DNA of 64,000 bases from Halohasta litorea. Its GTDB lineage: Archaea; Halobacteriota; Halobacteria; Halobacteriales; Haloferacaceae. The notes beneath the pieces are model-generated. The model searched no databases. It was not told where the DNA came from and saw nothing but the letters and a program-made list of their open reading frames with translations. Positions 28,716 through 51,076 of the stretch are shown piece by piece. How positions within the stretch are numbered: position 1 is the stretch's first letter; every line of letters starts with the position of its first letter. Made by a program: the position numbers and the translations under genes. The DNA lies in NCBI RefSeq assembly GCF_024494645.1, contig NZ_JANHDJ010000005.1:248001-312000 (forward strand), written 5' to 3'.

Positions 28716-28737
28716 CGACAGCCGGGAACCGACCGCC

Positions 28738-31888: not shown

Positions 31889-31941
31889 CGGCTTCGATCG
31901 GAGTAAGCAGCTCCTACTCGCCGGTAGGACAGTCCTACCAC

Positions 31942-32937: not shown

Positions 32938-33123
32938 ATACTGGTGTTTTAAATAGGATCGTAAAGTTGTGCGCCGCCTACCATGCGAACTGGGCCGCTC
33001 TCGCGTTTTCCGATGCCGAACCGGATGTGAGGTCGACAGTCTCTGTGCGATTCGGAACGTCCTGGATCGAAAACAGGCCGATAGTTGATCGGATCGACTA
33101 TTCTGTGGGAGCGAGAGGGTTGC

Positions 33124-34983: not shown

Positions 34984-35211
34984 AGTCGTGAGTCGAGAGG
35001 GTTAGCTACGCTGGAGTATCGGATACACAAGCAAAGTTAGCCACCCATTGTCCGGTAATAAACTGGGAAAAGGTCGACTACGAACCTGCGTGTGAGCACG
35101 AAAGGGTGACAAATACCGGGGAGGCGGCTGGAAACGGCCGATACGTCGCGATCTCGGCCAACGCCAAGTAGGAAACGGGTAACGAAAGCCGTTGGGACGT
35201 CCGACTAGCCA

Positions 35212-36384
35212 ATGACTACGTCCGATTCGCTCGACGTGTGTTTCCTCATCAACCACCTCGATGCTGGCGGGGCCCAGACGCTCCTCAGGAATATCGTCGC
35301 GTTGGACGACCGACCCCATGTCAGCTACACCGTCTGTTATGCCGGTGGTCCCAACGAGTTCGGCTCCGAGTTCGAGGCGCTGGGCGTCGACGTCGTCGAC
35401 TTGGGCGCGCGGACGGACCCACCACAGTTCGACCCGCGTGCGGTCGCCCGGACGCTCCAGTATTTCGGAACCCACGATGTCGATGTCGTCCACGGTCACC
35501 TCCCGTATGGGGCAGTGCTCGGGCGGATCGCCGGCCGGAGAGCGGATGCGGCAGTTGTCACCACCCACCACAGCGTCCGGCAGAACTACCACCCCATCGA
35601 GCGGACGCTCGAACGAGCCACCCGGCGGTACGACGACGCGACGGTGTTCGTCTCGGATGCGGTCGCCGGGTCATTCGACGGCCCGACTGACGACACGCTG
35701 GTGGAGACTATTTACAACGGAATCGACGTCGCGGGGTTTCGGGAGCAGCTCCAGTCGGCTGCTGCTGATCAGGTGCGGGCCGATCTCGGTGTGGCCGACG
35801 AGCTGCTGGTGTTGCAGGTCGGCCGCTGTATCGAGGCCAAGCGACAGCTCGATCTGGTTCGGGCCGTCGACCGGCTGACCCACCGCCTAGGCGATCCAGG
35901 TGTGCACGTCGCGATCGTCGGCGATGGACCACAGCGATCCGAACTGGAAGCGGCGGTTCGGGATCGCGGGCTCGATGCCCACGTGTCGATCGTCGGTCGC
36001 GTGTCGCCATCGCGGATTCACGACTACTACGCCGCCGCCGACGCCTACGCACAGGTCTCGGCCTACGAGGGGATGCCGATGACGCTGCTCGAAGCGATGG
36101 CGTCGGGACTGCCGTTGGTCGGCACCGAGGTTCCTGGAATCGCCGAGTTCATCGACAGTGAGACCGGGCTTCTCGTGCCGCCGGAATCACCACCGGAACT
36201 CGCTGATGCGATGGCCGCACTGAGAGCTGTCGATCACAGAACACAGCTCGGCCGAGCGTCTCTAACCCGTGTGGCCGAACGGTACGAAATCGACCGGACG
36301 GTCGAGGCCTACCACGAGATCTACGAGCAGGTCACAGCAGGGAGGATGTCAGCAGCGCCCGAAGCGACTATGCGCTCTCATTGA
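35212..36384 (+). CDS. GT4 family glycosyltransferase (1)
   Basis: 390 residues, GT-B fold. The N-terminal NHLDAGGAQTLLRN loop binds the acceptor side. The C-terminal nucleotide-sugar site has VGRCIEAKRQLDLV (with the Lys) and the E-x7-E motif YEGMPMTLLEAMASGLP. It is cytoplasmic and transfers a sugar from an NDP donor to a growing glycan, probably on dolichol phosphate. Its last 17 bases overlap the end of the convergent DUF1616 gene. The sugar specificity cannot be read from the sequence. Confidence 0.88.
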   Translation: MTTSDSLDVCFLINHLDAGGAQTLLRNIVALDDRPHVSYTVCYAGGPNEFGSEFEALGVDVVDLGARTDPPQFDPRAVARTLQYFGTHDVDVVHGHLPYGAVLGRIAGRRADAAVVTTHHSVRQNYHPIERTLERATRRYDDATVFVSDAVAGSFDGPTDDTLVETIYNGIDVAGFREQLQSAAADQVRADLGVADELLVLQVGRCIEAKRQLDLVRAVDRLTHRLGDPGVHVAIVGDGPQRSELEAAVRDRGLDAHVSIVGRVSPSRIHDYYAAADAYAQVSAYEGMPMTLLEAMASGLPLVGTEVPGIAEFIDSETGLLVPPESPPELADAMAALRAVDHRTQLGRASLTRVAERYEIDRTVEAYHEIYEQVTAGRMSAAPEATMRSH

Positions 36385-37906
36385 TCGGTTGCGAACTCTC
36401 ATCGTCCGACGCTGTGGTCTCGTCATCCGATCCCGTACTCGCATCGTCATCGGCTGCTGTACTCCCATCGTCTAACTCCGTACTCTCGTCATCAGACCCC
36501 GTGCTCCCGTCGTCCGACTCTGTACTTTCGTCATCAGATTCTGTACTCTCGCCATCCGATTCCGTACTCTCGCCATCCGATTCCGTACTCTCGCCATCCG
36601 ATTCCGTACTCTCGCCATCCGATTCCGTACTTCCGTCATCCGATTCCGTACTTCCGTCATCTGATTCCGTACTTCCGTCATCTGATTCCGTACTTCCGTC
36701 ATCCGATTCCGTACTTTCATCAGTTGCTTGTTCGTCATCACTGTCCGAAGGGTCTTCCTCAGTACTCGACTCCGTCGTATCGCTGCTCGATTCTGATGGG
36801 TCGCCGTCCGATTCCCCCGGCTCGTCGGCCGATCCGACGCTTACAGTATCCAGGGAAGTCCCCTCGGTTGTCGTCTGTACCGTCCCGTCATCCGAGAGCT
36901 GGAGGTAGGTAACGCGGTAGGCATCCTCGGCAGTCGGGTCGGAAGGCGCATCACCACGGTAGAGGTAGTGTGTCAGCCGGAGGTTCGACCCCGAGAGCTG
37001 GGGGTCGGCCTCGTAGGACTGCCGCCACCACTGGTTGGGGGCCAGCGTTTTCGAAAAGCGGTCGACTTCGGACTGCTCGATGACGACCGAGCTGTTGTCG
37101 GTGGTCACGACGCGGTCGATCGTGACAACGACCGTAAACCGCTGTTCGACTCCTTCGTAGTTCCGAACGCCGAACCGGAGGGTTTGTGGCTCGTCCGTTC
37201 CCAGCGTGGAGGGGTAGCCGCTGGCGGTCAACTCTCCGGTCTCGTTTTCGGTCAGCAGATACAGTTCGGTCGGCGTTTCGCCCTGTTGGGGAACCGACAC
37301 GGCGTATGCGACGCTTCCCAGCGAGATCAGGAGGCTCGCAATGACGACCAGCCGGACCAGTCCGCCGATGGGACCGCCTCGGCCGAGCGAGCGACTCGCC
37401 CCGACGAGACGGCTCCCGACAGCGGGCGCATACCGGATCTCGGGGTCGAGGGGTGCTCGGCGGGCGAGTGCGACGAGTGCGGCGAGGGCAGTGATACTCG
37501 TTAGCCCGACGGCGAACTGACTGGTTGTGAAGCCGATGGTCGTTCCGAGAGCGATCCCCACGAGACTCGAAACGGCGATACTGGCGACCACCGACAGTGT
37601 GAGACGGACGAGCGTCCTGGATTCGTCGGATCGATCGTCCGGCTCCCGTCCGAAAAACGTCGACTGCGAGTCCGGCGAGCGTGCGATGATCGGCCGCGAT
37701 CGTGGGAACAGCGCCGCGACCAGCGCGTATCCGGGCAGCAAAAACAGCAACGGAAACCCACTCAGCGTGCGGATTGGGTCGGGGACTGGGAGCAGCGACG
37801 TCTGTATCGCGCCGATCGTTACTGCGAGTCCCGCCACGACGGCGAGGTCGCTCCCCAACCGTCCGAACCGGTGCCACGGCCGTGTGTCGTCGACAGACGC
37901 ATCCAT
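36368..37906 (-). CDS. DUF1616 membrane protein with a mucin-like Ser/Thr/Asp/Glu repeat stalk
   Basis: 512 residues. Four N-terminal helices and the SGFPLLFLLPGYALVAALFP segment match DUF1616. A fifth helix (about residue 190) leads into an outer beta domain (about 215-345). From about residue 395 the protein becomes a tail of roughly 15 heptad units of the form STESDDG / STESDGE, ending DESSQPINESA. Such an acidic, Ser/Thr-rich tail is likely extracellular and could be O-glycosylated. Other haloarchaeal DUF1616 genes also sit in glycan loci, but their function is not known. Confidence 0.82.
   Translation of the reverse strand: MDASVDDTRPWHRFGRLGSDLAVVAGLAVTIGAIQTSLLPVPDPIRTLSGFPLLFLLPGYALVAALFPRSRPIIARSPDSQSTFFGREPDDRSDESRTLVRLTLSVVASIAVSSLVGIALGTTIGFTTSQFAVGLTSITALAALVALARRAPLDPEIRYAPAVGSRLVGASRSLGRGGPIGGLVRLVVIASLLISLGSVAYAVSVPQQGETPTELYLLTENETGELTASGYPSTLGTDEPQTLRFGVRNYEGVEQRFTVVVTIDRVVTTDNSSVVIEQSEVDRFSKTLAPNQWWRQSYEADPQLSGSNLRLTHYLYRGDAPSDPTAEDAYRVTYLQLSDDGTVQTTTEGTSLDTVSVGSADEPGESDGDPSESSSDTTESSTEEDPSDSDDEQATDESTESDDGSTESDDGSTESDDGSTESDDGSTESDGESTESDGESTESDGESTESDGESTESDDESTESDDGSTGSDDESTELDDGSTAADDDASTGSDDETTASDDESSQPINESA
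36475..36725 (-). repeat. 21-base tandem repeats inside the DUF1616 gene
   Basis: About eleven adjacent 21-base units, of which those from about 36540 to 36715 are nearly identical (core CCGATTCCGTACTTCCGTCAT or a CTCGCCATCCGATTCCGTACT variant on the plus strand). The period equals seven codons, so gain or loss of units keeps the frame and only changes stalk length. No spacers are present, so it is not a CRISPR array. Confidence 0.85.
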
Positions 37907-38362
37907 CGATCACAGACCTCGCTACCATGCTCAATAAGTATAGATCGCCTTCTGGTCACGATGCCAGTGATATCCCGGAAGTAGATGCCATGTAGCGAGC
38001 GACTGCTGTGAACTCGCTTTTGATGGCTAAAACGTCCACAGACCGACTTAGTTGGCGTAAAATACCAGAATAGCCAGCGGCGTTTGGGAGGACTTACTCC
38101 GAGTAGTCGATCTATTCTTTAGTTAGTGGTTGGTGTACGACGCCTCGATGGACTGTCACGAGTTGTTCACAACACCGGCTACCGGGAGTTCTCTGCGCAG
38201 GTGTGTTGGACGGTCGACGGGTGCTGCTTGCGGGCGTCGGCCGCAGAGTGGATCGACCCACCAGCCGCCATCGGTGCGTGAGCAGCGTCGCATACATCGG
38301 TTGCATATCGCTCGACCACGAGGTCGAGGAACGAACGCGGAGTATCGGGGAAGGAGCCAGTA
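37907..38362. other. Intergenic region between divergent DUF1616 and ABC exporter genes
   Basis: 456 bases. An A/T-rich segment (GTAAAATACC) at about 38056 and CTATTCTTTAG at about 38111 are possible promoters for the ABC gene at 38363. Short open frames in 38130-38360 run in several phases with no consistent coding signal. It may include decayed coding sequence, but I cannot identify a source. Confidence 0.4.
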
Positions 38363-40159
38363 ATGTCGGAGTCGGATATCTCACTTCGAGAGAAGTTCCA
38401 CGCGCTCCGGATCATCGCCTCGTACGATCCGAAACTCGTCTCGCTGATCGTCGTCTTCGGATTCGTGACGGCGATCTTCGAAGGCATCGGGATAAGCCTC
38501 ATCCTGCCGGTCATCGAAGTCGCCCAAAACGGGCCACCGTCGGGTGATCCATCAGGAATCTTAGGCGCATTTATTACGATGTACGACCTGTTCGGCGTCC
38601 CGTTCACCCTCGAATACATCGTTGCCGGGCTGACAGCCGTCATCACGGTTCGGTACGGGACGAGCTTCGTCGTCGCCTATCTCCGGGAGTCACTCCGGAC
38701 GCAGTACATCCGTGAACTCCAGCGGTCGGCCTACGACGCCGCCCTCGACGCCCGGATCGGATTTTTCGACACACGAGGCTCCGACGAGATCCTCAACGCG
38801 ATCATCACTCAGACGTTCTACGCCGGACGGTCGATCAAACGGATCGTCCAGATGTTTCAGCAGGTGTTGCTCTCGGCGATGTATCTGGGGATCGCGTTCT
38901 ATATCGCACCGACGTTGACGGTACTGGCGGCCGTGTTGCTCGGCGGGATGACCTACCTCGTCCGGAACGTCATCGAGCCCGGCTACGACATCGGCGATCG
39001 CGTCGCCGAGGCCAACGAACGCATTCAGGAGACTGTCCAAGCCGGAACACAGGGGATCAGGGCCGTGAAGCTGTTCGGCCTCCGCGAGCGCTTCTTCGAT
39101 TCCTTCGAGGACGCGGTGAACAACTTCACCCACGCGTCGATCAAACTCCGCCGTAACGACGCGCTGATCACGAACGTCTACAACTGGCTGAGCGCCGTCA
39201 CCGTTTTCGTCCTGGTCTATGTCGCGATCACGGTCATCTCGCTGTCCCTCAGCAACCTCGCGTTGTTCTTCTTCGCCATGTTCCGGCTGGCACCGCGAGT
39301 GAGCACGCTCAACCAGCGGCTCTACCAGATCGAAGGTGACCTCCCGCACGTCATCAGAACCCAGCGGTTCATCGACGAGCTGTCGGCCGAACGTGAGGAA
39401 GTCGGCGGCGACCGTCCGGTCCCCTCGCCCATCAAAGACATCGAGTATCAGGATATCACCTTCACCTATGACGGCAACGAGACCGTGCTCGACGATTTCT
39501 CGGTGACGATCGACGAGGACGAGTTCGTGGCCTTCGTCGGCACCTCCGGCAGCGGCAAGTCGACGCTCGTCTCGATACTGCTTGGGATGTATCCCGTCGA
39601 CGACGGACGGATCGAGGTCGGTGGCGTCCCGCTCGACGAACTCGATATCGGCGAGTGGCGGTCGAACGTTGCGGTCGTCCGGCAGAACCCCTACATCTTC
39701 GACGATACCCTCGAATTCAACATCACCTTCGATCGGGACGACGTCTCGCAGGCCGAACTGGAGGAAGTCTGCCGGATCGCCAAAATCGACGAGTTCTTCG
39801 ACGAGATGCCCGACGGGTTCGACAGCGTCCTCGGCGACGACGGCGTCCAGCTCTCCGGCGGACAGAAACAGCGTGTTGCACTCGCACGGGCACTGCTGAA
39901 AGACGCGGACGTGCTCGTTCTCGACGAGGCCACAAGCAACCTCGATACCAACCTCGAACGGGAGGTCCAACGCGAGATCGAGGCGATGGAACAGGAGTAC
40001 ACCGTGATCGCCATCGCCCACCGACTGTCGACGGTCGAGAACGCCGACTGTATCTACACGATCGAGGACGGCCGGATCGAAGAGTCCGGCCATCACGGCG
40101 AACTCCTCGATCAGGACGGTCAGTACGCGAGCCTCTACCAGACACAGGTCGGCCGGTAG
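38363..40159 (+). CDS. ABC exporter, possible glycolipid flippase (PglK/MsbA type)
   Basis: 598 residues, a fused half-transporter. Six membrane helices (about 25-310) carry typical long cytoplasmic loops, followed by an ATPase domain with Walker A GTSGSGKST (about 391-399), Q-loop VRQNPYIF, signature LSGGQKQR (about 496), Walker B VLVLDEATS and the H-loop IAHR. The position among glycosyltransferases suggests flipping of a lipid-linked oligosaccharide, as PglK does in Campylobacter N-glycosylation. Haloferax instead implicates AglR, a Wzx-like protein, and none is seen here. Drug or lipid export is the alternative. Confidence 0.85.
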   Translation: MSESDISLREKFHALRIIASYDPKLVSLIVVFGFVTAIFEGIGISLILPVIEVAQNGPPSGDPSGILGAFITMYDLFGVPFTLEYIVAGLTAVITVRYGTSFVVAYLRESLRTQYIRELQRSAYDAALDARIGFFDTRGSDEILNAIITQTFYAGRSIKRIVQMFQQVLLSAMYLGIAFYIAPTLTVLAAVLLGGMTYLVRNVIEPGYDIGDRVAEANERIQETVQAGTQGIRAVKLFGLRERFFDSFEDAVNNFTHASIKLRRNDALITNVYNWLSAVTVFVLVYVAITVISLSLSNLALFFFAMFRLAPRVSTLNQRLYQIEGDLPHVIRTQRFIDELSAEREEVGGDRPVPSPIKDIEYQDITFTYDGNETVLDDFSVTIDEDEFVAFVGTSGSGKSTLVSILLGMYPVDDGRIEVGGVPLDELDIGEWRSNVAVVRQNPYIFDDTLEFNITFDRDDVSQAELEEVCRIAKIDEFFDEMPDGFDSVLGDDGVQLSGGQKQRVALARALLKDADVLVLDEATSNLDTNLEREVQREIEAMEQEYTVIAIAHRLSTVENADCIYTIEDGRIEESGHHGELLDQDGQYASLYQTQVGR

Positions 40160-40296
40160 GTAGCGACTGTCGGAGCCGCCGACATTGGGAACCGAACAGT
40201 AGCCCACTGGCGCGGTCCGATACAGTAAACCTCAATTGACACTCCGGTAGGACGTTACTAACTAACCGGTTACTACGGTTTGAATACCAACAGCGC

Positions 40297-41142
40297 ATGG
40301 CATTACGGAACACCCGACAGTCCGGGAACCCCTCCCTCCCCGAGCGAGCGTTCGACGTATACGATCGTACCGGGATCGGTGGGGTCCTCAGAAAGACGGT
40401 TTCGTACGTTCTATTTAAAAACAGATACGTTGGACAGATACACCATCGAGGAGATACACTACTCCACAGCTACCGGCATTACCGACACCCGTATAAATAC
40501 AGTGATGCAGACCCATACAAAATAATATACGTCGATCCCGAACGGATCGAGTACAAGCTCCGGTTGGAGGACCCCGATCGGGATGTCGGCTACTTTTATT
40601 GGTGGGACGAACGGAACCGGGTGTATGATGGGCCGTGGGACCGCCAGCGAGCCGATTTCCTGGAGTTCCACAACACTCTCTACGACTGCTTCGAATCCCA
40701 CTTCGTAGACGGAGTTCCGTGGGAAGAGACGACGTTCATTCAGCAGCAGTTCGAGCTGGTCGACCGGGGCGAAACAACGTGGCACAGCTGTTCGTCCCGC
40801 CAGGACGTGCGTGACCGCTGTGGCCGACTCGATCGGGTCTGGAACGACATCACAACCAACGGCTATCGTCGGCAGGCCGTCGTGAACGACGTCCCGGACT
40901 GGCGGAAGGATTTCGCGGAGGTGATGGTCAACGTCGGGCGTGACGGGGAGCTGTTACAGAACTCGGATGGCAAACACCGACTCATGATGGCGAAGCTCGC
41001 CGGGATCGATGAGATTCCGGTGTATGTCATCGTTCGCCACAAACAGTGGCAGCAGCTTCGGAACGCGATCCGTGATGGCGGGGTCGACGACTACCCCGCA
41101 CACCCCGATCTAGCGGATCTCACGGACGGAGCCGAACGCTAA
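40297..41142 (+). CDS. Conserved glycan-locus protein with ParB/sulfiredoxin-like motif
   Basis: 281 residues, soluble, rich in aromatic residues and Arg in the first half. The C-terminal part contains NSDGKHRLMMAKLAGIDEIP (about residues 223-242), then VYVIVRHKQWQ. A D/N-G-x-HR motif followed by an IPV strand is the core of the ParB/Srx fold, where it binds nucleotide in some enzymes. Proteins of this kind recur in haloarchaeal polysaccharide loci but have no assigned role. DNA partitioning is unlikely: there is no ParA and no HTH. I infer an enzyme, perhaps a kinase or nucleotide-dependent modifier. Confidence 0.6.
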   Translation: MALRNTRQSGNPSLPERAFDVYDRTGIGGVLRKTVSYVLFKNRYVGQIHHRGDTLLHSYRHYRHPYKYSDADPYKIIYVDPERIEYKLRLEDPDRDVGYFYWWDERNRVYDGPWDRQRADFLEFHNTLYDCFESHFVDGVPWEETTFIQQQFELVDRGETTWHSCSSRQDVRDRCGRLDRVWNDITTNGYRRQAVVNDVPDWRKDFAEVMVNVGRDGELLQNSDGKHRLMMAKLAGIDEIPVYVIVRHKQWQQLRNAIRDGGVDDYPAHPDLADLTDGAER

Positions 41143-41218
41143 GGCAAGAACACGATAAGTCGCATCCTGTCGGCTGCTCGTCTTCGTGTCCCGGCAGTGG
41201 ACGATTGCTCTCTGGGCC

Positions 41219-41878
41219 CTATTTTATCGCGCCCGTCTTTCGCAGCACCGAGAGGAGATAAAACCGCCAGCTCAGGACATCCCTGTCTTTGTAGCTGTCT
41301 ATGCGTTTTTGAAAATACCAGTTGTAGAACTCATCGAAGTGGTCCCCATCGACGTTCTCGTGGCCGTAGCCCTCCAGGAACCGATCGAAACAGCGGTCGA
41401 ACAGCCGCCAGCGCCACGGCTGTTTGATCTTGAACACCTCGATGCCGACCTTCGGGGAGACGAGGTCGTGGATGGGCTCGCGCTCGTCGAGATAGCCCAG
41501 ATCAGTTAGATAGAACGTCTCCCCGTCGTACAGGACATCGTTGAACTGCAGTTCACTATGGGTGTGGCCGTGCTGATGGAGCTTCCGCAACCGGCTGCCG
41601 AACTGCTCGTAGGCCTCGGGCGAGAGGAAATCCAACAGGCTTTCGGCGTCGACGTACTCGGTGATGAGATACTGGTCGGAGACGTCGACCGGCCTGATAA
41701 ATTCCAGCCCGTCGATTGTCGGGATGTCGTTGGCTCGCTGGAGATTTTTGAACTCCTTGGTCAGAATCTCCGTCTCGCCAGCCACCCGTTTTTTGAAATA
41801 CTGGTCGTCCTCCGAGATGAAAAACTGTGCCGTCCCTACCTTGTCGATCCGTTCGAAATCGAGATCCGTCTGTTCCAT
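41219..41878 (-). CDS. Small kinase-fold protein, WaaP/Kdo-kinase-like
   Basis: 219 residues with a compact protein-kinase fold. An N-terminal glycine-poor loop with YFKKRVAGE (candidate Lys at 29/30), a hinge YLITEYVDAESLLDF, a catalytic-loop-like HTHSELQFNDVLY (residues 105-117) and a metal-binding DLG at 126-128. The HxD catalytic aspartate is replaced by Glu109 (HSEL). Similar short kinases phosphorylate lipopolysaccharide core sugars in bacteria. In this locus the substrate could be a glycolipid sugar. The E for D change leaves activity uncertain. Confidence 0.65.
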   Translation of the reverse strand: MEQTDLDFERIDKVGTAQFFISEDDQYFKKRVAGETEILTKEFKNLQRANDIPTIDGLEFIRPVDVSDQYLITEYVDAESLLDFLSPEAYEQFGSRLRKLHQHGHTHSELQFNDVLYDGETFYLTDLGYLDEREPIHDLVSPKVGIEVFKIKQPWRWRLFDRCFDRFLEGYGHENVDGDHFDEFYNWYFQKRIDSYKDRDVLSWRFYLLSVLRKTGAIK

Positions 41879-42067
41879 CGTACTCCCGGAAACGGAGGCG
41901 ATCAGGGCAGTTAGTTACACTCCGGCTTTCGGTCGCCCACAAGACTGTTAGGGAGGTGTTGTCATCCGATCAGTCCATCGAATACGGTCTTGTCGCTGCC
42001 AAATACCGCCGAAAACGGTTGTGGTGCCGCTGCAGCCGACCGAATTCGGTCGGCCTCGTAGACGGGG

Positions 42068-43267
42068 CTAGGTCGATTTGATCGTCATCTCGACGAACCC
42101 GGTTCCGTCATGATAGTAGACGCCAACCGGGCCCCACTCCGAGGAATCCGTGTCGTCCGAGTTCTCGGACGTCCCGTACTCGTAGGCGCCCAGATCCGGC
42201 GCGTCTCCGCTATAATCTACGGCTTCGAGGGGCCTCCCGGCGTCTATGGCCGGGCTGTCGTCCCGCAGCCGAAGGAAATCGGAGTCCGATCGATCGGTCG
42301 AGACGAATCCTGGATCAGTACTGTCGAGATCCCACAGGTTCGACTCGCTTGTAACGCCGTCGTGGAGTGTTTCCTCTCCCCCATTGTTCCCGTAGCTGAG
42401 ACAGTTGTAGACCTCGTGGTCCCCGCCGAACGCCCCGGCGATACCGTAGCCGTCGTTGTTGTAGGCCGTACAGTTGATGAGCGTATCACCCTCGGGCGAG
42501 TAGAAGCGGAACCCCTTCGTACTGTTGCCGTAGGTCACACAGCGAATGAAGGTGTTGCCACCACCGCTGTCGGTGTTGGCCGACTTGATACCGTTGCCGT
42601 CACCGTTGCTGTCGTACCCGTTGTCATAACAGACGGTATCGCGAATGACGATGTTGGTCGACGTCCACAGATCGACACCGTCGTCGGAGTTGTTGTAACA
42701 CTCACAGTCGACGATCCGGCCGTTGTTCACGCCGGACAGAACGATCCCGTCGGCGTCTTCCCCGCCGGTCGCCGGATCGTGATTGTTGTAGGAAGCGACG
42801 TTCCGTATTTCGACGTTTTCGCCGTCGCTGATGTGGATTCCGGAGTTGCCGTTATCGTGGAGATCGAGGTTGCGGAAGGTGAAATTCCCGCCAGTATGCG
42901 AGCGGATCGCCACCGACGAACACTCCGAAATTTCGAGGTTTTCGACGACCCAGTGTTCCGGTGCGGCGTCTTCGAGGAAGTGAAGCCCGCCCGTGATCTC
43001 CCACTCGGAGCTTCCTCCCTCCCACTGGAGGCGTGGGCGATCGTTGGGATCTCCCGAAATCGTGATCGGATCGGCCTCCGACCCGGAGGTTTCGATTTCG
43101 ACGGGGGTGCCGTTTTCGTACTGGTACTCGCCCCCGTGGATGTAGATGCTCTCACCGGCCTCGACGCGGCTCACCGCTTCGTGAACCGTCGCCAGCGGCG
43201 CGCTTTCGCTCCCGTCGTTCGAATCATCGCCGTCGGTGGAGACGACGTACTCTGCGGTGTCAATCAT
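42068..43267 (-). CDS. Right-handed parallel beta-helix protein (pectate-lyase/tailspike-like)
   Basis: 399 residues. About ten coils of a right-handed beta-helix are marked by repeated N-rich turns (NLEIS, NLDLHDNGNSGIHI, NVASYNN, CYNNSDDGVDL, CVTYGNSTKGFRF, CTAYNNDGYGI). The N-terminal YVVSTDGDDSNDGSESAPLATVHEAV is the start seen in PL9-like lyases. There is no signal peptide. It overlaps the small upstream gene by four bases (ATGA at 43264-43267), so the two are coupled. Such helices cleave or bind acidic polysaccharides; here it may act on the cell's own glycan or be the blade of a tailspike-like structure. Confidence 0.8.
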   Translation of the reverse strand: MIDTAEYVVSTDGDDSNDGSESAPLATVHEAVSRVEAGESIYIHGGEYQYENGTPVEIETSGSEADPITISGDPNDRPRLQWEGGSSEWEITGGLHFLEDAAPEHWVVENLEISECSSVAIRSHTGGNFTFRNLDLHDNGNSGIHISDGENVEIRNVASYNNHDPATGGEDADGIVLSGVNNGRIVDCECYNNSDDGVDLWTSTNIVIRDTVCYDNGYDSNGDGNGIKSANTDSGGGNTFIRCVTYGNSTKGFRFYSPEGDTLINCTAYNNDGYGIAGAFGGDHEVYNCLSYGNNGGEETLHDGVTSESNLWDLDSTDPGFVSTDRSDSDFLRLRDDSPAIDAGRPLEAVDYSGDAPDLGAYEYGTSENSDDTDSSEWGPVGVYYHDGTGFVEMTIKST

Positions 43268-43572
43268 TGTTCGCTCGTGTCAAACCAGATATCTCCCTCT
43301 TGGCCGTCGGGTTCGGTCTCCTGGACGTATACCTGCCCGGAGAACCCGCCGAGTCTGGCAAAGGGTTCCCAGGCATCGCCGCTGCCCAGATAGATGCGCT
43401 TGGTGTCGGTCGCAAGGTACTTCGCGCCCGATTTCGGTTCGTAGTCGCCCTTGTTGGCGTCGACGTCCCGAATCTCGACATCCGTATCGAGTTTCTCGAA
43501 GTTGTCGTTCAGTGGGGTATGCCAGTCGGTTGCCCCTTGGTCCGGTATGTTGTAATCGTTGTTTTCGGTCAT
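43264..43572 (-). CDS. Small tail-fibre-like protein coupled to the beta-helix protein
   Basis: 102 residues from the ATG at 43572. It begins MTENNDYNIPDQGATDWHTPLNDNFEKLDTD..., a pattern (short polar lead, WHTPLNDNF, then an ID/LD coil) I associate with virion-attachment or tail-fibre N-terminal segments. Later it has YEPKSGAKYLATDTKRIYLGSGDAW, like the small beta-structures in phage fibre and collagen-like proteins, and ends EGDIWFDTSEQ. No signal peptide or membrane helix. It is translationally coupled to the beta-helix gene, which suggests the two products form one particle or complex. Confidence 0.65.
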   Translation of the reverse strand: MTENNDYNIPDQGATDWHTPLNDNFEKLDTDVEIRDVDANKGDYEPKSGAKYLATDTKRIYLGSGDAWEPFARLGGFSGQVYVQETEPDGQEGDIWFDTSEQ

Positions 43573-43991
43573 AGTGTGTCTTGTTGCCCGGTGTACCGGA
43601 TCACGAAGGCACACCTTGTTTAGCAGTAAGGTGCCCGTACCGTGATCCTGTTCGACGTGTATCTGAGAATTTGTATAAGAGTTCTTACTATGATAATATT
43701 CTGATAGTCAAACATAGCTAAACGAAATTAGCAGAGATATATTGAGTTGTGAAACAGTGTAGACTGGTATGTAACTGAGGCTTATATCGAACAACAGCCG
43801 TAATCTAGTCCTACTAACCGCTCAAAACGCGTCATAGAGATGCATGCACTCTACAACTGTGATGGAAGGGATGCATATCCGCGACCCTCGTCGTCATTGT
43901 CATATACTCTCTGTATTGTAACAGTATTCATAATTTGTAACTGAGCTATAACTAAGCAGCCATCCGCACTCCGTTTTCGAAGCGACCACTC
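43573..43991. other. AT-rich intergenic region
   Basis: 419 bases between divergent genes, clearly lower in G+C than its neighbours (for example TATGATAATATTCTGATAG at 43689-43707). TATA-like elements for the plus-strand GT4 gene occur near 43948 (CTATAACTAAG). No gene-like open frame, RNA or repeat is visible. The composition fits long promoter regions in haloarchaeal surface-glycan loci. Confidence 0.5.
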
Positions 43992-45230
43992 ATGAAACGG
44001 GTTTCACCGACCGACCGACGCGACGAGAGCGAACAGTATGGGGGGTCCACGGGCGACTCCCTCCGGATTCTCCGGGTCGCCAGCGATATCTATCCCGATG
44101 TCAGCGGTGGGTTGGGACTCCACGTCCACCACCTTTCGCGCGAGCAGGGCGAGCGTGGCCACGACGTCCACGTGCTCGCCGCCGAAAGGGAGGGCGGCGG
44201 GAGAGGGCGACGCGAGGACCGCGACGGCTACACCGTTCACTACCACCCGGAGCTCGCGGCCCCGTTCGGCAACAGCCTCTGTCCGTCGATCGGCCGAAGC
44301 CTCTATGAACACCTCGCGGAGTTCGACGTACTTCATGCCCACTCACATCTGTTTTTCTCGACGAACATGGCGGCAGTCGCCGGGCGGCTCACCGAGACGC
44401 CGTTCGTACTCACGAACCACGGGCTCCGCTCCCAGACCGCACCGCCGTGGCTCCAGGACCTGTATCTCCCGACTGTCGGCCGGTTCACCTTCGAGGCCGC
44501 CGATAGCATCCTCTGTTATACCGACACCGACAGCCGCCGACTCGACGAACTCGGTGTCGATACCCGCAGACGCGTCATCCACAACGGCATCGACTGTTCG
44601 GTGTTCCGGCCCGTCGAGACCGAGCGGTCGGACCGACAGCTGCTGTACGTGGGGCGGCTGACGGAGGCGAAAGGCGTTCAACTGTTGATTCGGGCGGTCG
44701 CTCACCTCGACGCCGAGTTCCCCGACCTCTCGCTGATCGTGGTGGGTGAGGGGCCGAACCGGGGCCATCTCGACGCACTCGTCGACGAGTTGGGGCTCGA
44801 AGAGACGGTCACGTTTGTCGGTCGCCTCCCCAACGAGCAGCTACCCGAACTGTACAGCGAGAGCACGCTGTTCGTCCTGCCGAGCCGGAACGAGGGGATG
44901 CCACGGACCGTTCTCGAAGCGCTGGCCTGCGAAACGCCGGGCGTGACGACACCCCTCCCACAACTCACAACGGTACTGTCCGACGGCGGCCTGACTGTCG
45001 ACGACCGCGAGCCGTCAGCCTTCGCCCGGGCGATCGCGGAACTCCTGGAAGCCCCCGACCGTCGGCGGGCGATGGGCCGGGCGGGCAGACGCCGGGTTGT
45101 CGAGCACCACTCCTGGGAAACGACCGTCGAGGAGACGCTTGCGGAGTATTACGCGCTGCTCGATGACCAGCCGACGACCACGGCGACACACGAGCGGAGA
45201 GCAGACGTACCGCGGGGTGTTGACCAATGA
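43992..45230 (+). CDS. GT4 family glycosyltransferase (2)
   Basis: 412 residues, GT-B fold. The N-terminus has an extra polar lead of about 25 residues, then RVASDIYPDVSGGLGLHVHHL. The donor site has VGRLTEAKGVQLLIRAV and E-x7-E in NEGMPRTVLEALACETP. It transfers an NDP-sugar to a lipid-linked or protein-linked acceptor at the inner membrane face. Its stop overlaps the next glycosyltransferase start by four bases (ATGA at 45227-45230), so the pair is likely to act in consecutive steps. Confidence 0.88.
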   Translation: MKRVSPTDRRDESEQYGGSTGDSLRILRVASDIYPDVSGGLGLHVHHLSREQGERGHDVHVLAAEREGGGRGRREDRDGYTVHYHPELAAPFGNSLCPSIGRSLYEHLAEFDVLHAHSHLFFSTNMAAVAGRLTETPFVLTNHGLRSQTAPPWLQDLYLPTVGRFTFEAADSILCYTDTDSRRLDELGVDTRRRVIHNGIDCSVFRPVETERSDRQLLYVGRLTEAKGVQLLIRAVAHLDAEFPDLSLIVVGEGPNRGHLDALVDELGLEETVTFVGRLPNEQLPELYSESTLFVLPSRNEGMPRTVLEALACETPGVTTPLPQLTTVLSDGGLTVDDREPSAFARAIAELLEAPDRRRAMGRAGRRRVVEHHSWETTVEETLAEYYALLDDQPTTTATHERRADVPRGVDQ

Positions 45231-46360
45231 CCGACCGAACCGGCGAACTGCTAACTGAGGCTGACAATCCGGCCGAGACATCACAAAGCGAACAAACTCG
45301 GGTCTTCTGGCCGTTTTTCATCGGAACCGACAACCCGATCTCCTACCTCTACCAGCAGATCGCCCCGAAATTCGACGCGGGGGAGTTCGACATTACCGTT
45401 TTGGCCTCGGGCGGAGACGGACAGCTCGAAGCCGACAACGTGCGGACGATCCCGGCAGCGGAGTTCTACACGTGGGCGGGGCGGCTCACACTCGCTCGCC
45501 ACGCCATCGAGTCGTACGACCTACTCCATACGGGTGGGATTCCGGCACTCCATTATCCGGTTGCACTGCTCGCCCGGCTTCGAAACCCGACCGCAACCCA
45601 TGTCCACACCTACCGGATCGACGCCGACCCGGATTCCGACCGGACGCCGACAGCCCTCAGGCGACGACTCGGACGACGGGCCACGATTACGACCGCGGTT
45701 AGCGAACACACGGCTGGCACCGTACGGTCGACGTTCGGCCTCGATCCGGTCGTCATCTACAACGCCGTCGATACGGCCCAGTTTCACCCGGACTACGAGC
45801 GGACACCGCTGCTGGAGCGATACGGGGCCGACCGCCCGGTGTTCGTCTTCGTCGGGAGCTTCGAGCGACGGAAACACCCACTGGACGTGATCAGTGTCGC
45901 CAAGCAGGTTCCGGAGGCGACGTTTCTGCTGATCGGCGGGGGCGGGACACAGGATCGGGACGAACTCGTCGCCGACCGGGCGGCCAACGTCGACAACGCA
46001 CACGTCGTCGGTCGCGTCCCGAAGGATCGACTCCCGGCAGTCTATGCGAACGCCGACGGACTGCTGTTCCCCTCGACGATGGAGGGTTGTCCGAACGTCG
46101 TCCTGGAGGCCTTCGCCTCCGGCACACCCGTCGTTGGCTACAACGCGACATCAATGCCCGAGTTGGTCGTCGACGGCCAGCGGGGCTACCTGGCCGACAG
46201 CGGCGACGTACGCGGACTGATCGATGGTGTCCGATCGGTGATCGCCGACTCGACGAACCGATTAGGCGACAACGCGAGAGGGTACGTCCACCGAAACCAC
46301 ACCTTCGAGACCGTCGCCCAACAGTACGCCGACGTCTACCGCACCGCACTGGGCGACTAG
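45227..46360 (+). CDS. GT4 family glycosyltransferase (3)
   Basis: 377 residues, GT-B fold. The donor-site strand VGSFERRKHPLDVISVAKQV and the E-x7-E motif MEGCPNVVLEAFASGTP are intact. It starts inside the stop of the preceding GT4 gene, so it is translationally coupled to it. It faces a further GT4 gene that runs in the opposite direction (29 bases between stops). Sugar donor and acceptor are not predictable. Confidence 0.88.
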   Translation: MTDRTGELLTEADNPAETSQSEQTRVFWPFFIGTDNPISYLYQQIAPKFDAGEFDITVLASGGDGQLEADNVRTIPAAEFYTWAGRLTLARHAIESYDLLHTGGIPALHYPVALLARLRNPTATHVHTYRIDADPDSDRTPTALRRRLGRRATITTAVSEHTAGTVRSTFGLDPVVIYNAVDTAQFHPDYERTPLLERYGADRPVFVFVGSFERRKHPLDVISVAKQVPEATFLLIGGGGTQDRDELVADRAANVDNAHVVGRVPKDRLPAVYANADGLLFPSTMEGCPNVVLEAFASGTPVVGYNATSMPELVVDGQRGYLADSGDVRGLIDGVRSVIADSTNRLGDNARGYVHRNHTFETVAQQYADVYRTALGD

Positions 46361-46389
46361 CGCTGTAGACGTCCACCAGTCGGCCCGAC

Positions 46390-47505
46390 TCACTCATCCG
46401 AACACTGCCGAAGGACATCGCCGTAGGCCTGGGCGACAGCACTAATTTCGAACTGTGTTTCGAAGAGCCGCTGGCCGGTGGTACCGAGATTCTTGCGGGC
46501 TGTGTCGTCGGTCGCAAGGAGTGACACCGTGTCGACGAGCGTGTCGAAATCACCCTCAGCGAAGCCGCCGACCGACTGGTCGCCCGCGATACGCCCCGGA
46601 TCGACCGCCAAACTCACGACGGGCGTGCCGACCCGCCAGGCCTCCAGGAAGGTGTTGGGGAACCCCTCGTAGGCGGACGTCGAGACGAGACAGGTCGCCG
46701 ACCGATAGTACTCGTGGATCGCATCCGGGTCGACGACCCCCTCGTAGTGGAGGTTGTCGAGGGAGTCGATCCGCCGACGCAGCCGCTGGTGGTAGCTGTC
46801 GTCGCTGCCCGCGGGGCCGACCAGCCGGAACTCGATGTCGGGCAGCGCCGCTGCGAGGTCGACAAACAGGTGGGGGCGTTTCTGGTCCTGGTCGAGCCGC
46901 CCGACCCATAGCACGTACTCACGATCGTGATAGGGCCTGGTGGAATCGGCGAGCGGATAACCGTTGGGAACGACCGCTGGCTCCCTGCCGTACTGCCGTC
47001 GAACCAGCCGCGACTGTTTCGGCGTCTGTGCGATAATCGCCGCCGCCCGGTCCATTCCCCGTTCGAACAACCGGCGTTTGACCGCGCCGAGCTCGGCCGG
47101 GCGGTCGGTGATGTTGGCGTCGTTCGCCACGTTGTACACCCACGGCGTCCCGAGGACATCGGCGAGTGTGGCCACCACCGCCGCGAAGGCTGGCGTGCCA
47201 CGGTGGACGAACACGTCGGGGTCGATCCGGTGCATCGTGGCGGCCAGATCGGCCAGCCGCCCGAGCTGATCGGTCGCCGAGGCCTCCGAGTGTGGATCGT
47301 AGGTTCGGTGGAGGACGACCCCGTTGCGGATCTCTTTGAGGGGCTGCCCGTAGTCGGCGACGATCACGTGGACGTCGAACGCGTCGGTCAGCTCCGCGGC
47401 GAGCAACGAGAGTTGGCGCTCGGCGCCGCCGCCGGTCACCCCCTGTCCGTCGACGAAGTAGCCATACGAGTCGAGCGAGACGAGACAGACGCTCGGCGTT
47501 CCCAT
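46390..47505 (-). CDS. GT4 family glycosyltransferase (4)
   Basis: 371 residues from the ATG at 47505 (MGTPSVCLVSLDSYGYF), GT-B fold. VTGGGAERQLSLLA is the acceptor-side loop, WVGRLDQDQKRPHLFVDLA the donor-side Lys region, and YEGFPNTFLEAWRVGTP the E-x7-E motif. A GTG at 47541 would add 12 residues without family support. It likely adds one sugar of the same glycan as its convergent neighbours. Confidence 0.86.
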   Translation of the reverse strand: MGTPSVCLVSLDSYGYFVDGQGVTGGGAERQLSLLAAELTDAFDVHVIVADYGQPLKEIRNGVVLHRTYDPHSEASATDQLGRLADLAATMHRIDPDVFVHRGTPAFAAVVATLADVLGTPWVYNVANDANITDRPAELGAVKRRLFERGMDRAAAIIAQTPKQSRLVRRQYGREPAVVPNGYPLADSTRPYHDREYVLWVGRLDQDQKRPHLFVDLAAALPDIEFRLVGPAGSDDSYHQRLRRRIDSLDNLHYEGVVDPDAIHEYYRSATCLVSTSAYEGFPNTFLEAWRVGTPVVSLAVDPGRIAGDQSVGGFAEGDFDTLVDTVSLLATDDTARKNLGTTGQRLFETQFEISAVAQAYGDVLRQCSDE

Positions 47506-47716
47506 TGGCGGCTGATCGACCCTCGCTCGGTTAGTTACCACCCGCCTTCCCCGATGGGGCGACAGCTGTGCCGAGAGCTGGCTCCGAGGCAGTCACTGGC
47601 CACTGGCGGCTGACCACTGGTGGCTGGCGTAGTGTCCGGATACTATCCGGTAGGCACTCGATACAAGCGTCGGACGCGGCTACTGTAGCCGATCGGTTCC
47701 GCTCGGCGCAGGGCGA

Positions 47717-48517
47717 TCAGAACAGTTTCAGTTGGAGTCGCCACAGATACCGCGAAACCAAAAGCAGCGTCAACATAGGGACGAACGACCGGTATTCGAT
47801 GCCGCTTTCCTCCTCGCCGTAGTGGGCTGTCGTCGGGACATCCAGAATGTTGACGTCGTTGACGTTGAGGTGGACGAGCATATCGTTGAGGAACCCATAC
47901 CCGTCATAGAGGCGGTCGATCTCCAGCTCCTGGAGGGCTGCCGTGCTGATGGCGGTGTAACCGTTCTGTGGGTCGGTCATCCCCCAGTAGCCGCTGGCGA
48001 TGCGTGTCAACCCCGTCAATAAGGCGTTTCCGAACAGCCGCCACGACGACATCTGGGCCCGCTGTGTCGGGTTGTCGAGTCGGTTTCCCTTCGTGTAGGC
48101 TGCCTCGCCAGCCACGATCGGATCGAGGAACCGATCCAGGATGGTCGGATCCATCTGGCCGTCGCCGTCGATGACCGCAACGAGATCCATCCCGGCGTCG
48201 ATGGCCGCGTTGTATCCCGTTTTTACTGCGCCGCCGCGGCCCGTGTTGGTGTCGTGGCGGATCGGCACGACCGCCGTCTCCCGCCCCCCGTCGGATGTCA
48301 GCTCCGACTCGACGCCGCGGGAGTCCGTCGTCGTACTCGGGGCCGACTCGATGCGGGAGACGTATCGTTGGATCTCGGTCCACGTCTCGTCGGTCGAACA
48401 GTCATCGACCGGATAGATCCGGTCGACGTAGCTCGGGACCGCTTCGAGCACGTCCCCGATGAACTGTGCCTCGTTGTACACCGGGATGACGACGGCGACA
48501 GCGTGGTCCCGGTACAT
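47717..48517 (-). CDS. GT2 glycosyltransferase, dolichol-phosphate-sugar synthase-like
   Basis: 266 residues from the ATG at 48517 (MYRDHAVAVVIPVYNEA). GT-A features are PVYNEA, DDCSTDETW, and DGDGQMDP, the metal-binding DxD region. The C-terminus ends in a short amphipathic stretch without a clear membrane anchor. The pattern fits DPM1-like enzymes such as the haloarchaeal AglJ, which charge dolichol phosphate with the first hexose. An insertion of about 35 Ser/Thr/Arg-rich residues (around 60-90) is unusual. Start at ATG 48544 would add nine residues. Confidence 0.83.
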   Translation of the reverse strand: MYRDHAVAVVIPVYNEAQFIGDVLEAVPSYVDRIYPVDDCSTDETWTEIQRYVSRIESAPSTTTDSRGVESELTSDGGRETAVVPIRHDTNTGRGGAVKTGYNAAIDAGMDLVAVIDGDGQMDPTILDRFLDPIVAGEAAYTKGNRLDNPTQRAQMSSWRLFGNALLTGLTRIASGYWGMTDPQNGYTAISTAALQELEIDRLYDGYGFLNDMLVHLNVNDVNILDVPTTAHYGEEESGIEYRSFVPMLTLLLVSRYLWRLQLKLF

Positions 48518-49120
48518 CTCACACACCACCGCAAACAGCAGCACAGTTCACCGTACTGCAGGGCCAGTGCGGTCCTGCTGGTCCGAGATGACGCTGCCGA
48601 TTGCCGCTGTTCTGCGGCCGGAGGGCGAGGGTTGGCTGCTCGCTGTCACGTGGGTTGGACGAACACCGATTGCCCGCAGACGGGATGACAGGTGGTATAA
48701 AGCGGGACGGGCCGACCCGAGAGGTGGTCATATGGCCGACCCGACACGAACCATCCGTATTGTAATGTCTTGTCTGTGAACCGTCGCTGTGGATAACAAC
48801 TAACTACTACACTGGGCCAGCTGGCGGTAGCTATATATTATACATATATGTTCATCGAGATGCCATACAACAGCAGTTTCTCACCTGTTTGGCCCCTATT
48901 TGCACTAGCGAGCTGCACTCTGTATGATAAACATCTGATATTCGGATTGGATTTTTGATAGTAACCGGTATGGATTGGATAACTAAGCAGTTCGCTTCGG
49001 ACGGTCTGTGTAGATGTCAGACAATTATCTCACGGCCCCAACTCGGACGGCGCGACAGTTGTGCCCGGGGACAAAGAGAGCCGAGCGCTCGACCACGGCC
49101 AGCCGACAGGGGAGGACCGC
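48518..49120. other. Intergenic region between divergent GT2 and epimerase genes
   Basis: 603 bases. The centre (48780-49000) is AT-rich, with GTAGCTATATATTATACATATATG at about 48827-48850 as a strong TATA-like block. It could serve either direction. No open frame here has coding composition and no RNA or repeat is evident. With 29677-30199 and 43573-43991 it is one of three long AT-rich gaps in the island. Confidence 0.5.
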
Positions 49121-50104
49121 ATGAGCGTTCTCGTCACCGGCGGCGCGGGATTCATCGGCTCCCACATTACCGAGGCACTGTTGCAACGCGGCCACGAGGT
49201 CGTTGTCCTGGATAACCTCGATCCCTACTACGACGTCGACATCAAACGGCAGAACATCGAACGGTGTCGGGAAATCGAAACCGGCCGCTTCGAGTTCGTC
49301 GAGGGGTCGATCACCGACGAACGACTCGTCGAGGAGGTCTTTTCGACGTACGATGTCGAGTTCGTCTACCACGAGGCCGCCCGCGCGGGCGTCCGAACGA
49401 GTGTCGAACAGCCGCTGTTCTACGAACGGAACAACGTCGGCGGCCTGCTAACGCTGCTCGAAGCCGCGACCGACCACGGCGTCGAGCGGTTCGTCAACGC
49501 CTCCTCGTCGTCGGTGTACGGTCGGCCCGACTATCTGCCGTACGACGAGGCCCATCCGAACTACCCGAAAAGCCCCTACGGGACGACGAAGCTCGCGGCC
49601 GAACACTACTGTAAGGTCTGGCAGTCGGTCCACGGCCTCCCGACGGTGAGCCTCCGGTATTTCACCGTCTACGGGCCGCGGATGCGACCGAACATGGCGA
49701 TCTCGAATTTCGTCTCACGCGGTCTCAACGGTGAACCGCCGGTGATCTACGGCGACGGCGAACAGACCCGAGACTTCACGTATATCGACGACGTGGTCGC
49801 GGCGAACCTCCGGCTCCTGGAGACCGACGCCGCCGACGGCGAGGTGTTGAACATCGGCTCGACGGACAACATTACGATCACCGAACTCGCCGATCACGTC
49901 ATTTCGCAGGTCGACAGCGAGCTCGAACCGATCTATGAGGCCGAACAGCAAGCCGACGCACGCCACACCCACGCCGACGTCTCGAAAGCACGCGATCTGA
50001 TTGGGTATGCTCCGTCGACTGATATCCGCGAGGGAGTGGGTGAATTCATCGAGTGGTACCGGCAGAACCGCGAGTGGTACGAACCCCTCGTCGTGAGCTC
50101 CTGA
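49121..50104 (+). CDS. NAD-dependent epimerase, UDP-glucuronate-epimerase-like
   Basis: 327 residues, extended SDR: TGGAGFIGSHI at the N-terminus, SSSSVYG, YGTTKLAAE (catalytic Tyr and Lys), RYFTVYGPRMRP, and GDGEQTRDFTYIDDVV. The YYDVDIKRQNIE segment after beta-2 is typical of UDP-glucuronate 4-epimerase relatives. With UDP-glucuronate supplied by the dehydrogenase at 27435 it could make UDP-galacturonate, a step known for hexuronic-acid-rich haloarchaeal glycans. The ATG at 49121 directly precedes the Rossmann strand. Confidence 0.87.
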   Translation: MSVLVTGGAGFIGSHITEALLQRGHEVVVLDNLDPYYDVDIKRQNIERCREIETGRFEFVEGSITDERLVEEVFSTYDVEFVYHEAARAGVRTSVEQPLFYERNNVGGLLTLLEAATDHGVERFVNASSSSVYGRPDYLPYDEAHPNYPKSPYGTTKLAAEHYCKVWQSVHGLPTVSLRYFTVYGPRMRPNMAISNFVSRGLNGEPPVIYGDGEQTRDFTYIDDVVAANLRLLETDAADGEVLNIGSTDNITITELADHVISQVDSELEPIYEAEQQADARHTHADVSKARDLIGYAPSTDIREGVGEFIEWYRQNREWYEPLVVSS

Positions 50105-50349
50105 TCGGGCGGTCAGCCTGGGTAGTAGGGGCCGTCTACCCCGTATTCAGGGGCGTATACCGAGAATAACCCCGCTCGGCTCCGGTTTTTCGAAACACAG
50201 CGACCACAGGCAGAGAGATCACTCCACACAGGGCGACGCTCCGAACGCAGTCTGTGGGTCCGGAGGGGGCTGAGTGGAGTATCCTGAACGAATACGGTGT
50301 AATTCTGAGAGTAACTAAGCCGGTAGCTGTGGATACGTTGACTGTCATA

Positions 50350-50994
50350 ATGAACGTGATCGCAATCGGGGCGCATCCGGACGACATCGAAATCGGGGCT
50401 GGTGGATCAATCGCACTCCATCGGGCGCGCGGCGACTCGGTTCGGTTTCTCATCCTCACACGCGGCGGCGAGCTCTCGCCGCCCGCAAAACGGGAGACCG
50501 AAGCCAGAGAGGCAGCCGACGTCCTCGACGTCGACGACATCCACGTGATGGGGTACGACGACACGAAAGTTCCCTACGACAACGAGATCGTCAAACGGAT
50601 CGATGACCACCTCACGGAGATCGACGTCGACCGCGCCTACATCCACACCGAAGAGGACACCCACCAGGATCACCGACACGCCGCGCTCGCCTCGATCGCC
50701 GCTGGCCGGAACACCGACGAGGTGCTGGCCTTCGAGTCGCCGTCGACGCGGTCGTCGTTCGATCCACAGTACTACAACTCCCTGAGCGAGGAGTTCCTCG
50801 AACGGAAAATAGACGCCATCAGGACCCACAAGAGCCAGCGCGAAAAGAAGTACCTAGAAGCTGAGGCGATGAAAGGACTCGCTCGGTTCCGCGGTCGGCA
50901 GGCGAACACCCGGTACGCGGAGGCCTTTCAGGTGATTCGCATCAGAGAAGACCAGACCGCGACCCACGAGCTGACGACCGAAATGTTGGACTGA
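50350..50994 (+). CDS. PIG-L family N-acetyl-sugar deacetylase
   Basis: 214 residues. The zinc site is made of AHPDD (residues 8-12) and HQDHRHAA (about 104), the signature of LmbE/PIG-L enzymes that remove the acetyl group from N-acetylglucosaminyl lipids or GlcNAc-mycothiol precursors. Here it could de-acetylate a lipid-linked HexNAc and leave a free amine on the glycan. The ATG at 50350 fits the family; the extended frame from 50254 does not. It is 245 bases from the epimerase upstream. Confidence 0.85.
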   Translation: MNVIAIGAHPDDIEIGAGGSIALHRARGDSVRFLILTRGGELSPPAKRETEAREAADVLDVDDIHVMGYDDTKVPYDNEIVKRIDDHLTEIDVDRAYIHTEEDTHQDHRHAALASIAAGRNTDEVLAFESPSTRSSFDPQYYNSLSEEFLERKIDAIRTHKSQREKKYLEAEAMKGLARFRGRQANTRYAEAFQVIRIREDQTATHELTTEMLD

Positions 50995-51076
50995 TCGGTC
51001 ACTCCCTGTTTCTGCGATCCAATAAAAAGCGATTGTGGCACAGCCTGTCGAGTTTCGGCCGGTAGACGGCAGCTAC

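Follow-up and report, generated by a model that had tools for sequence, protein, structure and literature searches.

Our analysis favors, with some reserve, the explanation that a virus fibre-docking pair has been reused in haloarchaea as an adaptor for the export and display of a surface-glycan lyase, and that a 102-amino-acid (aa) protein encoded in the window (the whole 64,000-nucleotide stretch of DNA analyzed here) is the cellular version of a fibre-docking domain from tailed viruses. We named the haloarchaeal domain of this protein, which carries the box W..PLN.NF, ND. Its candidate counterpart is a short Gly-Tyr tag of the form GYGxxGYG, borne mostly by proteins with a Tat signal. The linkage between ND and the tag, and the occurrence of both in viruses, are well supported.

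Two overlapping genes in a glycan gene cluster

The 102-aa protein (MTENNDYNIPDQGATDWHTPLNDNFEK...GSGDAW...GDIWFDTSEQ) and a 399-aa beta-helix protein are encoded on the minus strand by genes that share positions 43264 to 43267 (Table 1), and this 4-nt overlap suggests that their translation is coupled. An earlier note on this DNA had described the overlapping genes and the lack of a signal peptide in both products, and we confirmed each point: neither a hydrophobic nor a twin-arginine signal was found at the N terminus of either protein. Pfam searches with the 399-aa protein returned Beta_helix (5.6e-19), NosD, and DUF1565; the 102-aa protein had no Pfam or NCBIfam match. The flanking genes code for glycosyltransferases on either side, an ABC exporter, and a kinase-like protein. 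No phage gene adjoins the pair among its annotated neighbors, which are glycan-biosynthesis genes, and here too the earlier description was borne out. In the haloarchaeal source genome (3.81 Mb), the small ND gene is present once.

Table 1. Features of the window and their coordinates
Feature	Position	Strand	Remarks
ND protein gene, 102 aa, without signal peptide	43264..43572	-	Core residues 1-75 plus short C-terminal stretch VYVQETEPDGQEGDIWFDTS, common to the stand-alone class
WHTPLNDNF box, residues 17-25	43498..43524	-	Most conserved part of ND; at start of predicted helix 18-31
ATGA stop/start overlap, 4 nt, of ND gene and beta-helix gene	43264..43267	-	
Beta-helix gene, 399 aa, PL9-type polysaccharide lyase without signal peptide	42068..43267	-	
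Tat-signal protein (NRRSYLKLAG), 562 aa, CBM6/CBM35 modules	30200..31888	+	Sole GYG-tag protein of the source genome
GYG tag GYGLGGYGLGAYG, residues 42-54, just behind the Tat signal	30323..30361	+	
Glycan gene cluster around the pair, approximate extent	27435..51811	.	Glycosyltransferases, nucleotide-sugar enzymes, ABC exporter; part Pfam-tested

Distribution and architecture of ND

A profile search detected ND in 104 of 391 haloarchaeal genomes, representing 43 of 86 genera; in a set of 147 related genomes it was present in 36, from 21 of 59 genera. When one genome per species was scanned across 84,980 bacterial and archaeal species, matches to ND were obtained in haloarchaea only (78 loci). 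Within the ND core, residues P10, G13, W17, N22, N24, F25, D56, G65, and W68 are invariant in 40 sequences. No model for ND or for the tag exists in PHROGs, Pfam, or NCBIfam.

In most genomes ND is fused to its partner, which may be a beta-helix, a PL14-type lyase (PF21294, 1.5e-17), an S74 intramolecular chaperone (PF13884, up to 9e-18), or a part that belongs to no family; the two-gene form is the minority. Stand-alone ND proteins have a common ending similar to EGDIWIDT. In the loci inspected, a gene for a beta-helix protein of its own usually comes next, as seen in the window and at L052, L053, L054/L086, L083, L111, and L120. Because ND occurs in more than a quarter of the haloarchaeal genomes and the two-gene arrangement is repeated in at least six other loci, the pair is not a chance association; the earlier note was right to treat it as real, and its recurrence and its location in glycan loci were confirmed. 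That the two window proteins work together is supported by L137 and L138, where a PL9-like helix with 35-38% identity to the window helix is joined to ND in a single chain. At 12 further megaplasmid loci, nearly all ND genes lie, according to the annotation, among genes for glycosyltransferases, flippases, sulfatases, and DUF1616 proteins. Megaplasmids carry many ND copies, and in Haloarcula hispanica ND genes are present on pHH400.

Several unusual arrangements were seen. At L122, L123, L124, L128, and L135, only the first third of ND is present, at the C-terminal end (YNTPxxGTxDWHVPLNENF) and followed by a short coiled-coil; this portion may be a minimal docking unit. In two of these loci (L122 and L123), a tag protein is encoded 4.4 kb from the partial-ND gene. 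In Haloarcula (L069, L084, and L091), one glycan cluster holds two convergent ND genes whose products differ in their beta-helix-like C termini; one of the two genes follows a tagged CBM6/35 protein, and a small membrane-type protein ending in GYGEDGYGEQGFGE is encoded about 7-8 kb away. A lone T4 gp19-like tail-tube gene (PF06841, 6.5e-29) is located directly upstream of an ND-S74 chaperone gene on a plasmid of Natronosalvus amylolyticus (L085, 14541-22512) and in genomes G100 (C22), G114 (C34), and G116 (C17), with no further tail genes annotated nearby. At L085, the ND-S74 gene is followed by a gene for a small Tat-signal GYG protein and then by one for a giant PQQ beta-propeller protein.

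A tag on Tat-signal proteins is linked to ND

The gene beside ND very often codes for a Tat-signal protein ending in [DE][DE][FY]GxxGYGx(x)GYGG. In dozens of loci this tag makes up the last 9-16 residues of the Tat protein, and ND starts ~20 nt (about 13-23) downstream. We searched the genomes for the DNA pattern encoding GYGxxGYG without reference to their annotation. Among the 147 related genomes, the tag was found in 32, ND in 36, and both in 23 (p=5e-11), and 26 of the 31 tag sites in ND genomes lay within 25 kb of ND, compared with 0.76 expected. Since the motif had been noticed in this set, we repeated the search in 277 unused genomes; the regular expression itself came from earlier loci, and only the figures from the 277-genome set are independent of the discovery. 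Here, 74 genomes had ND, 69 had the tag, and 52 had both (p=5e-24). Of the 86 tag sites, 40 were situated 500 nt or less from ND and 68 no more than 25 kb away, against expected counts of 0.04 and 2.1, respectively. In all 391 genomes, both elements were present in 72, ND without an exact tag match in 32, the tag without ND in 23, and neither in 264 (Fisher 5e-33). The co-occurrence p-values are optimistic because the genomes are related, but the distances are independent of kinship. A reversed-pattern control gave roughly 0-2 chance matches per genome, and lone tag matches outside a Tat protein were for this reason not used as evidence.

The fetched loci contained 61 distinct tagged open reading frames (ORFs), and in 52 of them the tag lies within 20 residues of the C terminus. 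A twin-arginine signal is present in 57 of the 61, and 33 also have a lipobox-like Cys. Haloarchaea route 39-55% of their secretome via Tat, and most haloarchaeal lipoproteins use this pathway (PMC2945643); the frequency of Tat signals among the tagged ORFs exceeds that background (4e-11). Between the signal and the tag, the proteins carry LamG, CBM6, CBM35, or PPC domains and PT-rich linkers. In a second form, to which the CBM6/35 protein of the window belongs, the tag stands directly behind the signal. The tag site of this protein is the only one in the 3.8-Mb source genome and is found 13 kb from the sole ND gene, in the same cluster; we propose that the protein is the likely exported partner of the window ND. 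A GYG-tagged Tat partner, which the earlier note had overlooked, is also the likely exit route of the signal-less pair. A single chain carrying both the tag and ND was looked for and not found. One exception to the rule of exported partners was seen at L130 (6491-8194, genome G035), where a MinD/ParA-like ATPase without a Tat signal ends in the GYG tag DDYGEVGYGEGGYGGTV.

ND and the tag in tailed viruses

In a profile scan of IMG/VR we identified a 52.7-kb contig of a tailed halovirus (L146) on which ND forms the N terminus of a 383-aa fibre protein (8001-9152) and shares 57% identity with the window protein. The fibre gene is positioned between baseplate J, which matches its counterpart in HATV-2, a cultured myovirus, at 36% identity over 95%, and a baseplate protein. 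Two genes past the fibre, a baseplate protein (PHROG 1160, 3e-6) starts with MSHVGYGRGGYGSGTYGDGGY. A haloarchaeal provirus (L131, in G085) encodes major head and minor tail proteins; its fibre begins with the box, and two of its virion proteins contain internal tags. Weak IMG/VR matches (L072-L082) were left out, as only the C-terminal GDIW(F/I)DT stretch had matched, which corresponds to generic phage linkers.

Similar elements were seen in phages of other hosts. Among 120 test contigs picked only for three GYG units, 10 had a box resembling W..PLN.NF, compared with none of 120 control contigs picked for GDG (p=0.0016). On several triple-GYG contigs the fibre gene adjoins a tagged virion protein (PHROG 3287), and at L071 a tail protein ending in GYGSEGYGV is encoded immediately behind a WDVPLNDNF fibre. 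A tblastn search of 50,697 phage records with the window ND, the L146 ND, and the L146 tagged protein returned nothing, and the baseplate regions of the cultured haloviruses HATV-2, HRTV-27, HSTV-2, and HJTV-2 contain neither box nor tag.

Structure predictions were made for single chains only. In the PDB, the ND model (pLDDT 86) comes closest to the N-terminal regions of phage fibres and Mtd, and among viral models to fibre N termini, all with weak E-values (best PDB fold match, E 0.17); by sequence, ND has no match in the PDB. The model matches in fold the Mtd N-terminal domain (PF18454) and the tail-fibre hyaluronan lyase HylP1 (PDB 2c3f), with which it shares the motif G..(F/Y)..TDT...GDG..W at residues 49-68, but every Pfam and PDB score in this comparison falls below curated or significant thresholds. 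The Mtd_N match in the L146 fibre (0.0019; 18.5 bits) is below the PF18454 cut-off of 26.3 bits, and the window 102-aa protein has no PF18454 match. ND differs from Mtd_N in that the alignment includes neither the W..PLN.NF box nor helix 18-31; it is shared with phage fibres as an N-terminal domain, as in L146, but its cellular copies are located in glycan loci and not in tail operons. These fold matches, together with the identity to a tailed-halovirus fibre, uphold the earlier view of the small protein as tail-fibre-like, and the suspicion of a virus tail origin was correct. Because of the viral arrangement and the fold matches, ND and the tag resemble two halves of an interface for fibre docking.

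The provirus at L131 also encodes a small Tat-like protein with FGYGEGAYGEAGYGG (5866-6297) directly before its ND-type fibre, and viruses may therefore carry the cellular form of the tag partner as well.

The beta-helix protein resembles PL9 lyases

A profile built from five beta-helix sequences matched Pel9A (PDB 1ru4), of polysaccharide lyase family 9, at 5e-61 and a rhamnogalacturonan lyase at 4e-27. The structure model of the window protein (mean pLDDT 72, core 80-95) is closest in fold to 1ru4 as well (6e-17, TM 0.73), with tailspikes far weaker, near 1e-5. Residues D173, D195, D196, D199, and K228 of the window lyase align with Asp209, 233, 234, 237, and Lys273 of Pel9A, which we take to be its calcium-binding residues and its catalytic lysine, respectively. 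Since these residues align and Pel9A is the nearest relative, the window protein is probably an active lyase and not a tailspike. The earlier reading of the beta-helix as a phage tailspike is rejected on the same sequence and fold comparisons, and most relatives without ND are Tat-exported lipoproteins. Nor did we obtain evidence for a free particle such as the stand-alone polysaccharide-depolymerizing one that had been suggested. Unlike Pel9A, the window lyase lacks a signal peptide, is encoded behind ND, and has an additional C-terminal tail. It probably acts on an acidic glycan of haloarchaea and not on pectate.

Proposed export of ND proteins and rival explanations

ND-linked proteins have no export signal of their own. 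All eight C-terminal-ND proteins (L046, L047, L049, L122, L123, L124, L128, and L135) lack a signal at their free N terminus. Among PL9-like relatives, a Tat signal is present in none of the seven that are linked to ND versus four of the five that are not (p=0.01, few cases); those with the signal are ordinary Tat-exported lipoproteins, and the exception (L142) lacks both ND and a Tat signal and has no tag within 9 kb. Tat exports folded complexes in which one subunit alone bears the signal, which is known as hitchhiking (PMC10924467). Given the signal-less ND proteins and this property of Tat, the account needing the fewest assumptions is that ND docks on the tag and is carried along. In viruses, ND resides on the tail fibre, and the GYGxxGYG peptide belongs to a virion protein, of the baseplate or otherwise. 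Within the glycan clusters of haloarchaea, the peptide would have moved onto proteins exported by Tat, for the most part lipoproteins that contain LamG, CBM6, CBM35, or PPC domains, and ND would have been joined to signal-less proteins acting at the surface, such as PL9 and PL14 lyases, other beta-helices, and C1q-like and S74-chaperone heads. An ND protein would fold and assemble in the cytoplasm, dock on the GYG tag of its Tat partner, and cross the membrane in the folded state as a hitchhiker; the cargo would then remain on the surface, where it would act on the acidic glycan of the cell itself by trimming or binding it. For the window, the cargo would be the PL9-type lyase made from the separate, presumably translationally coupled gene, and the CBM6/35 protein would be the likely tagged partner. 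We infer in this scheme the binding of ND to the tag and to the lyase, the co-export, and the substrate. Against it stands the position of the tagged protein in the window, 12-13 kb from the pair and with its tag after the signal and not at the C terminus. Further points against it are the 32 ND genomes and the 23 tag genomes in which the other element was not matched, as well as L142 and the tagged ATPase at L130.

The strongest rival, which we nevertheless consider unlikely, is display without co-export: ND and the tag would bind outside the cell, and the ND protein would exit by lysis, in vesicles, or through an unknown transporter, for example the neighboring ABC exporter, which lies 2 kb from the pair. 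The linkage data speak for functional coupling and are silent on the place of binding, and the lipidated partners, which have PT-rich linkers along with carbohydrate-binding domains, do resemble surface anchors. However, in dozens of loci the tagged partner and the ND gene are translationally close, nearly every tag partner is a Tat substrate and hence exported folded, and no transporter gene recurs beside ND in the annotated loci. Much less probable is an ordinary cytosolic enzyme with an accessory subunit that processes glycan precursors ahead of their export. PL9 lyases have polymers as substrates, most relatives without ND are lipoproteins that leave the cell, and the linkage to exported tagged proteins would be left unexplained, even though the missing signal peptides and the location among glycosyltransferases would agree with a cytosolic role.

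Two further explanations start from the viral ancestry of ND. The pair could be the fibre of a contractile injection system, with ND docking on its baseplate, as the source genome does encode a sheath, two gp19 tubes, and two baseplate J-like proteins (G000 C28:326000-349000; L498 and L499), and the lone gp19-like gene directly beside the ND-S74 gene in G100, G114, G116, and Natronosalvus L085 would also fit. But the C28 locus is on a separate contig and has no GYG tag and no ND box, ND genes are located in glycan clusters instead, and in 147 genomes ND showed no association with gp19 (p=0.09, or p=0.39 when the three cases beside ND are left out). We rejected this explanation on position and co-occurrence and give it only a very small chance. 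A slighter chance still is left to a provirus remnant, or an actively exchanged viral fibre gene, without a cellular role. The presence of ND in a halovirus and a provirus and its many megaplasmid copies point that way; intact ND reading frames in half of the genera surveyed, its association with Tat partners and glycan enzymes, the absence of further virus genes beside it in the annotated glycan loci, and the intact active-site residues of the cargo all argue against it.

Relation to known systems and significance

Hitchhiking on a tagged Tat partner, the explanation we prefer, has its nearest parallel in the Tat hitchhikers among hydrogenases and formate dehydrogenases (PMC10924467), in which a signal-less subunit beside a Tat-signal subunit is exported folded. 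Likewise, a signal-less ND protein is encoded with a Tat-signal protein in dozens of relatives. The ND system differs in that its short tag and its domain are portable and occur in viruses too, and in the many unrelated cargoes that the two would serve and co-export. It also differs from tailocins and contractile injection systems, in which cells likewise reuse virus tail parts, since the window ND is not encoded together with a sheath, tube, or baseplate and only the fibre-docking part was taken. Cohesin and dockerin form a small docking pair for the display of glycan-active modules, and ND and its tag would similarly place varied modules of this kind on a surface scaffold. No sequence relation to cohesin-dockerin was found, however, and the haloarchaeal system is virus-related, with a Gly-Tyr tag of 10-20 residues.

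The ND/tag pair is undescribed in the literature searched, a scope that excludes bioRxiv preprints and most subscription papers. Going beyond the window, we put forward more tentatively, and with somewhat more doubt than confidence, that the captured docking pair of tailed viruses serves as a general "ticket and hook" by which signal-less lyases, lectin-like proteins, and fibre-like proteins leave via Tat, in an undescribed system of export and display, and that the pair of peptide and box may also be a widespread unrecognized fibre interface in bacterial tailed phages. If true, this would explain the exit of a whole class of signal-less haloarchaeal surface enzymes and would mean that single virus tail parts, not whole particles, are reused. 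It would further provide a portable tag and adaptor usable for displaying folded proteins at high salt, as well as a candidate peptide interface for holding fibres in many archaeal and bacterial tailed viruses. "Hypothetical protein" genes in the glycan clusters of dozens of genera would become a testable system.

The glycan cluster around the pair

Lyases within bacterial exopolysaccharide operons trim or release the cell's own polysaccharide. By analogy, the combination of a glycan cluster, a PL9-type lyase, and a CBM6/35 surface protein would fit a role in trimming the acidic polysaccharide of the cell itself or in setting it free. A small Bud32/RIO-like kinase is encoded beside the pair (41219-41878; NCBIfam 1.9e-8, below cut-off), as is a 281-aa protein without a Pfam match (40297-41142), and these two products may modify the glycan. 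The cluster also codes for a membrane protein of 512 aa whose tail is a long Ser/Thr-Glu-Ser-Asp-Asp-Gly repeat (36368-37906); the start of this putative DUF1616-like protein resembles the DUF1616 proteins that recur in such clusters.
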